From assembly GCF_937858865.1 (NCBI RefSeq), contig NZ_CALLYO010000177.1:1-18506 (forward strand): DNA of 18,506 bases, in the 5' to 3' direction. The stretch is from an uncultured Amaricoccus sp. Lineage in GTDB: Bacteria; Pseudomonadota; Alphaproteobacteria; Rhodobacterales; Rhodobacteraceae. Position numbers and translations under genes: made by a program. The notes beneath the pieces were generated by a model. That model was given only the letters and a program-made list of their open reading frames with translations. It was not told where the DNA came from and did not search any database. This document shows, piece by piece, positions 7,430-10,230 of the stretch (the first letter of the stretch is position 1; the number at the start of each line of letters is the position of its first letter).

Positions 7430-7779
7430 GGGCGGGCTCCGGTCGGGATCGGCTTCGGGGTGCCCTCGTCGGAAGCGACGAGGGGGTCGGGCTCGGGCGG
7501 GAAGGCGACCATCGTCACCTCGCCGAACTGTTCGGGGGTGAGCTCGGCGAGGCCGAGCTCGGCGGCGTTGGCGGCGACGAGGGCGGCGAGCCGGTCGGGG
7601 CGGTTGAGGTAGGCCCATTCGGCGTTCAGCACCGCGATCGCCTCGCGCTCGTGGGCGATCTGCTTGCGCAGCTCATCGAGCCGGCCCATCGCCTCCTGCG
7701 TCGCGTAGTTCACCCGGTAGGCCCATGTGGCGGAGACGACGACGAGCACCGCCGCCGAGAGGTGGAGGACGATCCTCAT
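7426..7779 (-). CDS. ftsL: FtsL-like cell division protein
   Basis: This small bitopic divisome protein has 117 residues. A membrane helix at about residues 4-21 ([18 protein letters not shown]) is followed by a periplasmic coiled-coil stretch (about 28-60, [20 protein letters not shown]) and the [16 protein letters not shown] segment typical of alphaproteobacterial FtsL. The tail is proline-rich ([14 protein letters not shown]...PIPTG). FtsL normally forms a complex with FtsB and FtsQ and activates FtsW/FtsI. The start is ATG 7779, overlapping the rsmH stop by 4 bases, with GAGGG 6 bases upstream. Its position between rsmH and ftsI supports the assignment, because FtsL is poorly conserved in sequence. 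Confidence 0.92.
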
Positions 7780-8789
7780 GCCAGGCCCTCGAGCGCGAGC
7801 CGCGGCAGGCCGAGGGCGCGGGGATCGACCGGCGCGGCGGGGGTGTCGAGGCGGCGGGCGACGCGGAGCCGGGCCGAGCGGGCGCGCGGGTTGGCGGCGA
7901 CCTCGGCGGCGTCGGGCGCGATCGGCTTGCGGGTGACGAGCTCGAAGCCGGGCGCCTCGCCGGGCGTCTCCGGGGCATGGCGGCTGCCGCGCGGGGCGGC
8001 GCCGGAGCGCAGCGCGAGGAAGCGCTTCACGACCCGGTCCTCGAGCGAATGGAAGGTGACGACGGCGAGCCGGCCGCCGGGGGCGAGCGCGGCCTCGGCG
8101 CCGGCGAGGCCGCGGGCGAGCTCGCCGAGCTCGTCGTTGACCGCGATGCGCAGCGCCTGGAAGCTGCGGGTGGCCGGGTGCGGCTGGCCGGGCTTCGGGC
8201 GCGGCAGCAGCCGTTCGAGGAGGCCGGCGAGCTGCAGGGTGGTGGTGAAGGGGGCGGCCTTGCGGTCCTGCACGATGGCGCGGGCGATGCGCCGCGAGGC
8301 GCGCTCCTCGCCGTATTCGTAGAGGATGGTGGCGAGCTCGGCCTCGGGGAGGCGGTTGACGAGGTCGGCGGCGGTCGGGCCGCTCTGGCTCATGCGCATG
8401 TCGAGCGGGCCGTCGCGGAGGAAGGAGAAGCCGCGGCCGGCCTGGTCGAGCTGCATCGAGGAGACGCCGATGTCGAGCACGACGCCGTCGAGCGCGGGGG
8501 CGCCCGCCGCGGCGGCGATCGCGGCGAGATCGCCGAAGCGGCCGGGGACGAGCGTCAGCCGCTCGCCGAAGGCGGAGGCCCAGGCGGCGGCGCGCTCGAG
8601 CGCCTCGGGATCGCGGTCGATGCCGATGACCCGCGCGGCGCCGGCGTCGAGGAGGGCACGGGCGTAGCTGCCGGCGCCGAAGGTGCCGTCGAGCCAGGTG
8701 CCGGAGACGGGGGCGACCGCGCGCAGGAGGGGCGCGAGGAGGACCGGCACGTGCGGAGTTCCGGGCGGGGCGATGGGGGCCATCATCAT
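7776..8789 (-). CDS. rsmH: RsmH (MraW), 16S rRNA (cytosine-N4)-methyltransferase
   Basis: RsmH methylates N4 of C1402 (E. coli numbering) in 16S rRNA using S-adenosylmethionine. The 337-residue protein begins near [13 protein letters not shown] and contains the SAM-binding loop [14 protein letters not shown], the segments [20 protein letters not shown] and GPLDMRM, the [18 protein letters not shown] region, and [18 protein letters not shown] and VKRF, all diagnostic for the family. Three ATG codons stand in tandem at the start. The first (8789) overlaps the mraZ stop as ATGA and has GAGGG 6 bases upstream, so I prefer it. The C-terminal [11 protein letters not shown] motif is typical. Confidence 0.98.
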
Positions 8790-9301
8790 GACCGGCCCTC
8801 GCGGTCCATCGCGTCGAGGAGGGCGAAGGGGTCGCCGCCCTCGTCGAGGCCCTCGCGCCAGGCGTCGATGCCGGCCATGTCGTCCTGGTAGGCCTTGGGC
8901 GCCCAGACCTGGAAATGCTCGCCCATGCCGGCGAAGAGCGCCTCGTCGGTGAGGCCGAACATCTCGCGCAGGCGCTGCGGCAGGACGATGCGGCCGTTCT
9001 CGTCGACCTGGGCATAGACCGACTGGGTGTTGAGGAGCCGCTCGAGGGCGCGGCGTTCCCTGGAGAAGGCGGGGAGCCGGGCGACCTTCTCGTCGAGCCT
9101 GGCCGCGCCTTCGAGGGTGTAGCCCTCGAGGCAGTGGCCGGACGGCATGCCGTAGATGAGGACGAAGGTCGGGTTCAGCCCCTCGGTCCAGTCCGGGTCG
9201 CCTTCCTCGATCACGCGGCGAAAGGGGGCGGGAACCGACACGCGGCCCTTCTGGTCCACCTTGTGGACCGATTCGCCCCTGAACCGCCGCAACACCGGCA
9301 C
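8786..9301 (-). CDS. mraZ: MraZ, transcriptional regulator of the dcw cluster
   Basis: MraZ is an oligomeric AbrB/MazE-fold DNA-binding protein that represses its own operon in E. coli. Both half-domains are visible: [25 protein letters not shown] at the N-terminus and [22 protein letters not shown] in the middle, followed by a [14 protein letters not shown] segment and an acidic tail. I place the start at GTG 9301 (171 residues), with AGGAG (9306-9310) 4 bases upstream. GTG 9295, two codons in, is equally possible, with 10-base spacing. The frame stays open to a TTG at 9340, but that extension lacks family similarity and contains the ribosome site. The gene overlaps rsmH by 4 bases. A candidate operator for its product lies at 9546-9600. 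Confidence 0.97.
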
Positions 9302-9305
9302 GCTA

Positions 9306-9310
9306 CTCCT
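9306..9310 (-). promoter_or_regulatory. ribosome binding site of mraZ
   Basis: AGGAG on the minus strand is the only strong Shine-Dalgarno sequence before the conserved MraZ N-terminus. It excludes the upstream TTG (9340) and supports GTG 9301 or GTG 9295 as the start. Confidence 0.65.
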
Positions 9311-9334
9311 GTCCCGTCGGCGAAGTCCCTCCGG

Positions 9335-9540
9335 AAGCAAATGGCGGGCCGTGCTGCCTCACGGCACGACCCGCCACCTGGTCCCTCTCTGGGTCCTCGC
9401 GCCCGGCCGCCCCCTGCTCGTTCGTGGGTCCTTGCCGGGTCTTGCTTCGTCTTTGGAAGAACTGTGGGCCTGTATGAAACCTGCCGGGTTTCTGTTTCGG
9501 GTCTTGTCGCCCTTGATCGAATTACCACTGCCCTTCCGTG
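9335..9540 (-). ncRNA. mraZ leader RNA, candidate UpsM-like sRNA
   Basis: The predicted transcription start (about 9540) lies about 240 bases before mraZ, a long leader for this gene. A terminator-like hairpin (9343-9375) would end a short transcript of about 200 bases. In Rhodobacter sphaeroides the dcw cluster is known to be preceded by an extended mraZ leader that gives rise to the abundant sRNA UpsM, of about 200 nt. Position, length and layout agree, but I did not compare sequences, so homology is inference. The leader carries five GGGTYYTYG-like repeats on the plus strand, read in the RNA as CAAGGACCC or CAAGACCC variants. It contains no open frame that resembles a protein. The exact ends are estimates. 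Confidence 0.45.
9343..9375 (-). terminator. weak terminator/attenuator hairpin in the mraZ leader
   Basis: The arms 9343-9354 and 9364-9375 pair over 12 bases with a 9-base loop. As minus-strand RNA the single imperfect position is a G-U wobble. As plus-strand RNA it would be an A-C mismatch, so the structure is better formed in the mraZ direction. It is followed by ATTTGCTTCC, a poor U-tract, which suits partial rather than full termination. It ends about 41 bases before the mraZ start. Confidence 0.5.
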
Positions 9541-9545
9541 CTTCA

Positions 9546-9600
9546 TTGGATAGCATGGGAGCACATGGGTTTCAATGGATTTTTGTGGGAATTCTTGGAC
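9546..9600 (+). promoter_or_regulatory. array of six 10-bp-phased MraZ-box-like repeats
   Basis: Reading the plus strand, TTGGA (9546), TGGGA (9556), TGGGT (9566), TGGAT (9576), TGGGA (9586) and TGGAC (9596) begin at exact 10-base intervals. In E. coli, MraZ is known to bind direct TGGGN repeats separated by 5 bases, the same period. Three boxes here are exact TGGGN and three deviate by one base. The array covers the candidate mraZ promoter completely, as expected for an autorepressor site. Phasing on one helical face fits binding by a ring-shaped oligomer. Function is inferred. Confidence 0.7.
9547..9575 (-). promoter_or_regulatory. candidate promoter of the mraZ/dcw operon
   Basis: On the minus strand TTGAAA (9570-9575) is followed after 17 bases by TATCCA (9547-9552), which is preceded by TGC, an extended -10 feature. 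The -35 box matches the sigma-70 consensus at 5 of 6 positions and the -10 box at 3 of 6. Transcription would start near 9540. The MraZ-box array overlaps both elements. Confidence 0.55.
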
Positions 9601-9831
9601 GTGAGCGCTTTCGAGTTTCCCGATCACGCGGATGTTCCCGTAAGGTTCGAATCCTGGTCCAGTTCTTGGTTGCTGCGCCGCAGCAGAACACAAGATGATG
9701 TGCTCTACCTGGCGTTTTATCCCGGCGCAAGATTATCGTTAAAGTTGTTCCCAGCCGCGTGATCGGCGGCCGCCGGCGGCGAATCGCCTGCCTTTCCCAT
9801 GCCGTTCCATGCGTGGCGGCCTTGGGGGAAG
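9601..9831. other. intergenic region between dcw promoter and rnpB 3' end, no gene seen
   Basis: This stretch is less GC-rich than its surroundings, especially 9700-9750. It holds an imperfect hairpin (9662-9665 and 9671-9676 pairing with 9680-9685 and 9686-9689, with a bulge) and a GC-rich palindrome near 9765-9780. I find no convincing open frame, tRNA or strong terminator for rnpB. It could contain further upstream promoter elements for the dcw operon. Confidence 0.5.
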
Positions 9832-10230
9832 AGTCGCGCGGATGGCCTGTAAGCCGGATTCTGTGACGGCCCCGGGGGGCCGCCGATGGCCATTCATCTC
9901 GGCCCGCCGTCGCCGGCGGGCTCGGGCAGCCAACCCGGATCGCTCGGGCGGGAGAACCCTGGGGGACCTCTCTCTCGATCGGACCCCCGCGCGATCCCTA
10001 TTTGGCCTTGCTCCTGGCGGGGCTTGCCGTGCCACCGACGTTGCCGCCGGCGCGGTGGGCTCTTACCCCACCGTTTCACCCTTGCCGCCGGGTTTCCCCG
10101 GAGGCGGTCTCTTCTCTGTGGCGCTTTCCCTCGGGTTACCCCGGGCGGGCGTTACCCGCCGCCATTTCTCCCTGGAGTCCGGACTTTCCTCGACCCTTTC
10201 GGGCCGCGGCCATCCGGCCATCCGCGCGTG
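9832..10230 (-). ncRNA. rnpB: RNase P RNA (bacterial type A)
   Basis: This is the catalytic RNA that removes 5' leaders from tRNA precursors. Read on the minus strand it contains the invariant segments: GAGGAAAGTCCGGACTCC near the 5' end, CACAGAGAAGAGACCGCC, GGTAAGAGCCCACCG, GGAGCAAGGCCAAATAGGG, and near the 3' end CACAGAATCCGGCTTACAGG. The ends are fixed by helix P1: 10216-10227 (read GCGCGGATGGCC) pairs perfectly over 12 bases with 9836-9847 (read GGCCATCCGCGC). The length of about 400 nt is normal for type A. The exact termini are uncertain by a few bases. The 5' end lies only about 5 bases from the stop codon of the upstream amidase gene. Confidence 0.97.

Follow-up and report, generated by a model that had tools for sequence, protein, structure and literature searches.

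The window, that is, the whole stretch of 18,506 nucleotides from an uncultured Amaricoccus sp. analysed here, carries a dcw cluster on its minus strand, in which rnpB is followed by a gap, mraZ, rsmH and further dcw genes:

9834 to 10225, minus strand: rnpB (RNase P RNA; Rfam RF00010, 276.7 bits), upstream of mraZ and codirectional with it.
8786 to 9301, minus strand: mraZ (PF02381, E = 9.2e-18), with an assumed GTG start at 9301.
7776 to 8789, minus strand: rsmH (mraW; PF01795, E = 2.8e-93), the dcw gene after mraZ.

The first gene of the cluster is mraZ, with rsmH and a gene for a PBP transpeptidase following it, all on the minus strand, and the gap between rnpB and mraZ measures 532 bp. 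In the translation of the window's mraZ both D-x-x-G-R repeats (DQKGR and DENGR) are kept. The protein has solved structural relatives, the best being 1n0e (E = 9.1e-9); structure entries for MraZ also include 9qlr, 9qlg, 9r4j, 9sx6 and 9sz7. The nearest named record is the MraZ of Amaricoccus macauensis, with 79% identity over residues 3-166. A record titled as a Flavobacteriaceae MAG (L142) encodes an MraZ 55% identical to that of the window, which suggests that this record is mislabelled or a mixed bin.

Within the gap lies an array of TGG boxes, named O1, together with promoter elements on the opposite strand:

9546 to 9600, plus strand (antisense to mraZ): predicted MraZ operator O1, from the letters, shuffles and conservation.
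9570 to 9575, minus strand: -35 element TTGAAA, from the letters, between boxes 3 and 4.
9547 to 9555, minus strand: extended -10 element TGC-TATCCA (TATCCA at 9552-9547), from the letters, overlapping box 1.

Read on the plus strand, the boxes of O1 are TTGGA (9546), TGGGA (9556), TGGGT (9566), TGGAT (9576), TGGGA (9586) and TGGAC (9596). The sequence-only reading had described them as six TGG pentamers at an exact 10-base period. This holds for the five TGGs from 9556 to 9596, which are in exact 10-bp register, but not for TTGGA at 9546, whose TGG, starting at 9547, precedes the next one by 9 bp and is one base out of register. When the intergenic stretch 9341-9833 was Markov-shuffled 5000 times, a run of five in register never arose, and a run of four arose in 2 shuffles. 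The pattern TGGN7TGGN7TGG gave 3 matches in the window, all within O1; in 200 shuffles it averaged 0.10 matches and never exceeded 1. When the whole own genome was searched, this three-box pattern was found 7 times (3 matches in O1 and 4 on four other contigs) versus 11 matches of a control pattern, which speaks against the specificity of short TGG runs. The matches at these four other places could be taken to mean that O1 is itself a chance or low-complexity repeat. This explanation, to which we give hardly any probability, was rejected on the strength of the shuffles, in which the five-box run never appeared, and of the conservation of O1 across families, and it is also contradicted by the co-occurrence of the array with mraZ (see below).

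The overlap of the array with both a -35 and a -10 element, claimed by the sequence-only reading, was borne out: both elements are present with a 17-bp spacer, TGC directly precedes TATCCA, and the letters CCCATG form a box while also supplying the TG of the extended -10. In both alignments of the site, the TTGA core of the -35 element (on the array strand, TCAA) ranks with the best-conserved columns. A consensus scan of positions 9250-9900, using a scanner that accepts only -10 elements ending in T, which TATCCA does not, returned no sigma-70-like promoter. That O1 might be the operator of a divergent gene is ruled out in the window, since the upstream rnpB is codirectional.

An MraZ match was present in 135 genomes, and mraZ upstream stretches were fetched from 100 of these, some of the others being left out since they ended too near. 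Seven further loci and the window brought the set to 108, of which 102 were analysed; L103 (too short), L128 (no recognised start) and four minus-strand loci, which were handled separately, were left out. The motif search was seeded with antisense windows and both strands were scored. The best site was antisense to mraZ in 73 of the 75 Rhodobacteraceae loci and, outside this family, in all 27 alphaproteobacterial loci. Sites scoring above 20 were present in 69 of the 75 Rhodobacteraceae loci, all antisense, leaving 6 loci without a convincing site. The four separately handled loci also showed an antisense array (scores 17.6 to 69), as did 4 of the 5 alphaproteobacteria of a second locus set, the fifth having no recognised start. 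The 10-bp phase and the polarity of the boxes are thus conserved in relatives (69/75 Rhodobacteraceae, 27/27 other alphaproteobacteria).

The single boxes are conserved to different degrees. Among the 69 Rhodobacteraceae loci, TGG was found at register 9556 in 65 and at 9566 in 60, and at 9576, 9586 and 9596 in 16, 21 and 11, respectively, with shifted frames there giving 0-0.7. Box 1 is degenerate in this family (TGG at 9546 in 5 loci, NGG in 39); it is TGG in all 27 loci of the other alphaproteobacteria, where registers 9536, 9546, 9556, 9566 and 9576 are TGG in 18, 27, 25, 25 and 11 loci. A run of two contiguous boxes is present in 42 of the 69 Rhodobacteraceae loci. In the other alphaproteobacteria, contiguous runs of 3, 4 and 5 boxes occur in 6, 12 and 7 loci (25/27 in total), and 4/27 loci have six TGGs in register that do not form one unbroken run. 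These register and run counts indicate that the core consists of two to four boxes, so that five or six are nothing rare. The doubled number of boxes with respect to E. coli, which the sequence-only reading had singled out, therefore had to be given up as a notable feature. It could still be argued that the six-box length is itself an adaptation, with repression in this lineage becoming graded or stronger as boxes are added. The figures for boxes 4 and 5 are in favour of this idea, since in the window's genus (10 loci including the window) they are TGG in 7 and 5 loci, compared with 9 and 16 of the other 59 Rhodobacteraceae loci. However, within the genus box 6 is TGG in 4 of the 10 loci, and other families, too, have five boxes in register (7/27 loci). 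We consider such an adaptation unlikely.

In the sequence of E. coli K-12, the coding strand carries three boxes upstream of mraZ, at distances of 43, 33 and 23 bases. In O1, TGGG is on the template strand of mraZ, and the coding-strand placement of E. coli was not found; we regard the strand as peculiar to the E. coli variant and not as a property of MraZ operators as a kind. A start was recognised in 38 of the 40 loci of the second set, 34 of which come from non-alpha Pseudomonadota. A sense run of at least three boxes was present in 26 of these 34 loci, and the sense run was the longer one in 29, tied in 5 and never shorter; three of the 34 had, in addition, an antisense run of three further upstream. 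A seed-free count of runs within the 350 bp before mraZ gave a longer antisense run in 27/27 other alphaproteobacterial loci of the first set and in 4/4 of the second, while in the 75 Rhodobacteraceae loci the antisense run was longer in 60, with 11 ties and 4 loci in which the sense run was longer.

Some loci depart from this division. Against the rule of their class, L059 (genome G025, Rhodobacteraceae) has four boxes in E. coli polarity and L215 (genome G101, alphaproteobacterial) has three sense-polarity boxes before mraZ. At L182, L185, L186 and similar non-alpha loci, a sense array is accompanied by an antisense three-box run 180-320 bp before mraZ. In L195 and L196, larger non-alpha loci from the same family as these, the upstream frame is divergent, and the second array at loci of this type may therefore serve the divergent gene, which may be under the control of MraZ.

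What is new in O1 is its polarity and its placement on the promoter, not the number of its boxes. The letters and the 10-bp period of the autoregulatory operator are kept, while direction and place on the promoter differ between classes, and the simplest inference would be that, in the lineage of the alphaproteobacteria, the operator reversed its orientation and shifted onto the promoter. The orientation of the array bears on the mode of action of MraZ, which could be plain occlusion, where direction is irrelevant, or a polar complex with RNA polymerase. The array also provides a sequence-based map of where MraZ should act in alphaproteobacteria.

The association of the array with mraZ was assessed in whole genomes and before rsmH. 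The strict core pattern ATGGGANNNNATGGNNNTCAA was found in 8 of 20 whole genomes, once in each and in all 8 cases inside the mraZ stretch; the other 12 genomes had no match, and a control pattern had 0 matches in the 20. In the comparison before rsmH, 16 of 18 genomes had an rsmH match, and in 8 of these 16, coming from 6 families only, an mraZ-like frame was absent before rsmH. None of these 8 genomes carried an array at this place (0/8), the antisense TGG runs reaching at most 2 and the model scores remaining below 0. The mraZ-bearing controls had the array in 4 of 4 cases, all four of them members of the models' training set. Four genomes that the profile had called mraZ-free do show an MraZ-like frame; the array is present in G132 and G021, and no antisense array was found in G087 or in G101, the latter with the three-box sense run of L215. 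In most of the genomes compared, the array goes with an mraZ-like frame.

O1 is thus very probably an MraZ operator that occludes the promoter of a leader and of the dcw cluster. The sequence-only reading of the array as an MraZ autoregulatory site over the dcw promoter is strengthened by the conserved phase and polarity, by a tie to mraZ in most of the genomes compared and by the finding of the strict pattern solely at mraZ in the 8 of 20 genomes that matched it, and it loses the emphasis on box number. The inversion relative to E. coli and the long leader of UpsM type had escaped that reading. From the anatomy, the conservation, the polarity and the co-occurrence with mraZ, we infer binding by MraZ, repression and the use of all boxes. 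MraZ subunits would contact the TGG(G) boxes, which, since they recur every 10 bp, would look to almost the same side of the helix. MraZ, once bound, would then cover the -10 element (box 1), the spacer (boxes 2 and 3), the -35 element (between boxes 3 and 4) and also the DNA just upstream of it (boxes 4 to 6). With the promoter covered in this way, RNA polymerase would be kept off, and MraZ would limit the expression of its own gene and of the cluster. Boxes that extend over -35, spacer and -10 are most simply read as a sign of repression by occlusion. It counts against an operator that the other Rhodobacteraceae mostly have only two contiguous boxes. Our search found no literature on binding or expression for any alphaproteobacterial MraZ, and no paper on an alphaproteobacterial MraZ operator was among the matches listed, which came mostly from the open-access literature.

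Alternatively, the conservation could be due to the promoter and to another regulator, e.g. NtrX or CenR, with MraZ not reading the boxes at all. Both regulators have been reported, by ChIP signals, upstream of mraZ in R. sphaeroides in the accessible parts of PMC7240162 and PMC9275681. An NtrX site was rejected in the window, however, since the NtrX motif GCAn9TGC has 0 occurrences in 9301-9840. Moreover, promoter conservation alone gives no 10-bp TGG steps outside the -35 and -10 elements, and where mraZ is missing there is no array. This second regulator as the cause of the conservation is very unlikely in our opinion, and we retain MraZ as the protein that would read the boxes of O1.

The promoter under O1 lies far upstream of mraZ and would produce a long leader:

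9302 to 9540, minus strand: predicted leader (5' UTR) of UpsM type, about 240 nt, from the distance between promoter and mraZ; its start near 9540 is deduced from the -10 element.
9343 to 9375, minus strand: terminator-like hairpin in the leader, from the leader fold and the letters, followed by ATTTGCTT.

The hairpin (9375-9343) is strong in the leader fold; a consensus terminator scan of 9250-9900 reported no terminator, and an RNA family search with the window's leader gave no match. The distance from the upstream edge of the site to mraZ is 252-368 bp in the 69 good Rhodobacteraceae loci and 89-284 bp in the 27 other alphaproteobacterial loci. Look-alikes of a leader segment at 9469-9483 (minus strand), CAGGTTTCATACAGG, were seen by eye in the leaders of L059, L096, G087 and others.

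According to the accessible part of PMC5089854, UpsM of R. sphaeroides is a 268-nt 5' UTR of the dcw cluster with a terminator hairpin, the most frequently transcribed sRNA of this organism, with a read-through of about one in a hundred and described in Rhodobacteraceae only. The same source places the sole mraZ promoter far upstream, with no separate start site nearer mraZ. The window's leader, of about 240 nt versus 268 nt, shares with UpsM the promoter far upstream, the long 5' UTR and the terminator hairpin, and in its layout it fits the UpsM type. UpsM is a terminated sRNA that is cleaved by RNase E. Through O1 the UpsM leader would come under the predicted control of MraZ. Since the terms 'binding site', 'repressor' and 'TGGG' have 0 occurrences in the accessible main text of PMC5089854, the idea that MraZ controls UpsM would seem to be new within the literature searched.

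The neighbourhood of O1 is more surprising than O1 itself. Two further elements lie between O1 and rnpB:

9795 to 9810, minus strand: tentative O2, boxes TGGAA and TGGGA 10 bp apart, of opposite polarity to O1, following the Rhodobacteraceae pattern.
9688 to 9703, minus strand: NrdR-like palindrome GCACATCATCTTGTGT, model score 13.2.

The O2 boxes of the window are weak and within chance, a run of at least two being obtained in 1738 of 5000 shuffles. A survey of the 520 bp upstream of O1 in the 69 Rhodobacteraceae loci (L038-L112), counting pairs with at least one TGGG, yielded 94 sense-strand TGG pairs at 10-bp spacing, distributed over 49 loci, versus 3 on the other strand. Other spacings gave 6-13 pairs (6-9 and 12-14 bp), with an excess at 11 bp (24 pairs) and at 15 bp (30 pairs). 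The pairs of O2 type cluster at about -105 to -160 (34) and at -240 to -360 (47). Two other roles for O2 were considered and set aside. That it serves a divergent gene elsewhere in the Rhodobacteraceae is not favoured, since the likely upstream frame is codirectional with mraZ, a call made at seven loci (L191-L194, L197-L199) by frame length and resemblance. Against a second mraZ promoter speak an alignment built on 34 of the 94 pairs, in which no conserved -35 or -10 showed, and the accessible part of PMC5089854, where R. sphaeroides mraZ is given no start site of its own.

A bridging of O1 to O2 by MraZ is possible. Going beyond this, MraZ might bind O1 mainly as an architectural or activating factor that reaches over to the opposite-polarity boxes upstream, and the 94 pairs in 49 loci, versus 3 on the other strand, are in favour of this. 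Yet O2 is missing in 20 of the 69 loci, is within chance in the window and is rare in the other alphaproteobacteria, where the 27 loci together have 2 sense TGGG pairs at 10-bp spacing in the stretch from -800 to -360, and boxes over -10 and -35 favour repression. We regard a mainly architectural or activating role as very unlikely indeed, and repression by occlusion remains the preferred reading of O1.

The palindrome (..CWATATNTWGTGT) was found between O2 and O1 in 65 of the 69 Rhodobacteraceae loci, compared with 3 of 69 shuffled stretches, and its consensus equals what we take to be the NrdR box, acaCwAtATaTwGtgt. NrdR is encoded in all 21 genomes checked, that of the window included. A model trained only at mraZ was applied, with a cut-off of >8, to 500-bp stretches at gene 5' ends in 20 genomes. 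Scores above 8 were obtained at nrdJ and at the gene of a CcrM-type methylase (found by PF18755) in 20/20 genomes each. At ftsZ the signal was weaker than at these two genes, with 15/20 genomes above 8 and 8 of them above 11, and at recA it was absent (0/20). The cut-off was also exceeded in 3 of 80 coding stretches and in the mraZ regions of 5 of the 27 other alphaproteobacteria. The strict pattern ACWATATNTWGTG was located at 27 places in 9 of 11 genomes, versus 8 for a control; the window's own genome had no match, and neither did G005, which is listed under the same genus. Ten neighbouring frames comprised class II ribonucleotide reductase (3), class I ribonucleotide reductase (1), the methylase (2), FtsZ (1) and other or nothing (3); among them, the frame scanned at L247 is not the one adjoining the site, which makes its empty result uninformative.

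NrdR boxes are paired, about 31-32 bp apart. At mraZ the pair spacings peak at 31-32 (11 pairs) and at 64-65 (10 pairs); the 31-32 peak was not seen at nrdJ, ccrM or ftsZ, and the window has no clear partner box. Since the palindrome is situated about 123 bp upstream of the -35 element, a direct control of the O1 promoter by NrdR is not given. In the accessible part of PMC6473078, consulted for a link of NrdR with dcw, 'NrdR' occurs 0 times. An NrdR regulon that includes cell-cycle genes is possible. Rather tentatively, and with the chances somewhat against it, we propose for the Rhodobacteraceae a compound switch in which NrdR, a repressor that senses dNTP/ATP, would act upstream of dcw, at ftsZ and at the CcrM-type methylase, while MraZ would close the promoter from the inverted array, which may be bridged to the opposite boxes upstream. 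If this were true, DNA precursor supply, DNA methylation and division would form one regulon together with ribonucleotide reductase.

The MraZ operator of E. coli, reportedly described by Eraso et al. in 2014, is said to consist of TGGGN direct repeats with a 10-bp period before mraZ. O1 shares with it the TGGGN direct repeats, the period and the position before mraZ. The two differ in that the three boxes of E. coli are on the coding strand and lie 23-43 bases upstream of the start codon, whereas O1 has five or six on the template strand, about 240 bp from mraZ. The accessible part of PMC7761207 locates the E. coli site downstream of the -10 element, in contrast to O1, which lies over the promoter. 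In the same part of that source, the tested MraZ site of B. cenocepacia is made up of four 7-nt repeats with 3-nt spacers, and a 250-bp fragment holding the repeats was used in a gel shift. This site resembles O1 in having repeats of 10-bp period at the mraZ promoter, but, unlike O1, it has four repeats that lie downstream of the -10 element and over the start site (PMC7761207). For M. gallisepticum, the tested MraZ site is given as (AAAGTGKN3)3 in the accessible text of PMC5282649. As far as the available portions of PMC5282649 and PMC8475190 go, the site of the Mollicutes differs from O1 in its three repeats and its other consensus, with a GTG core, and is like O1 in consisting of direct repeats with a 10-bp period at the dcw promoter.
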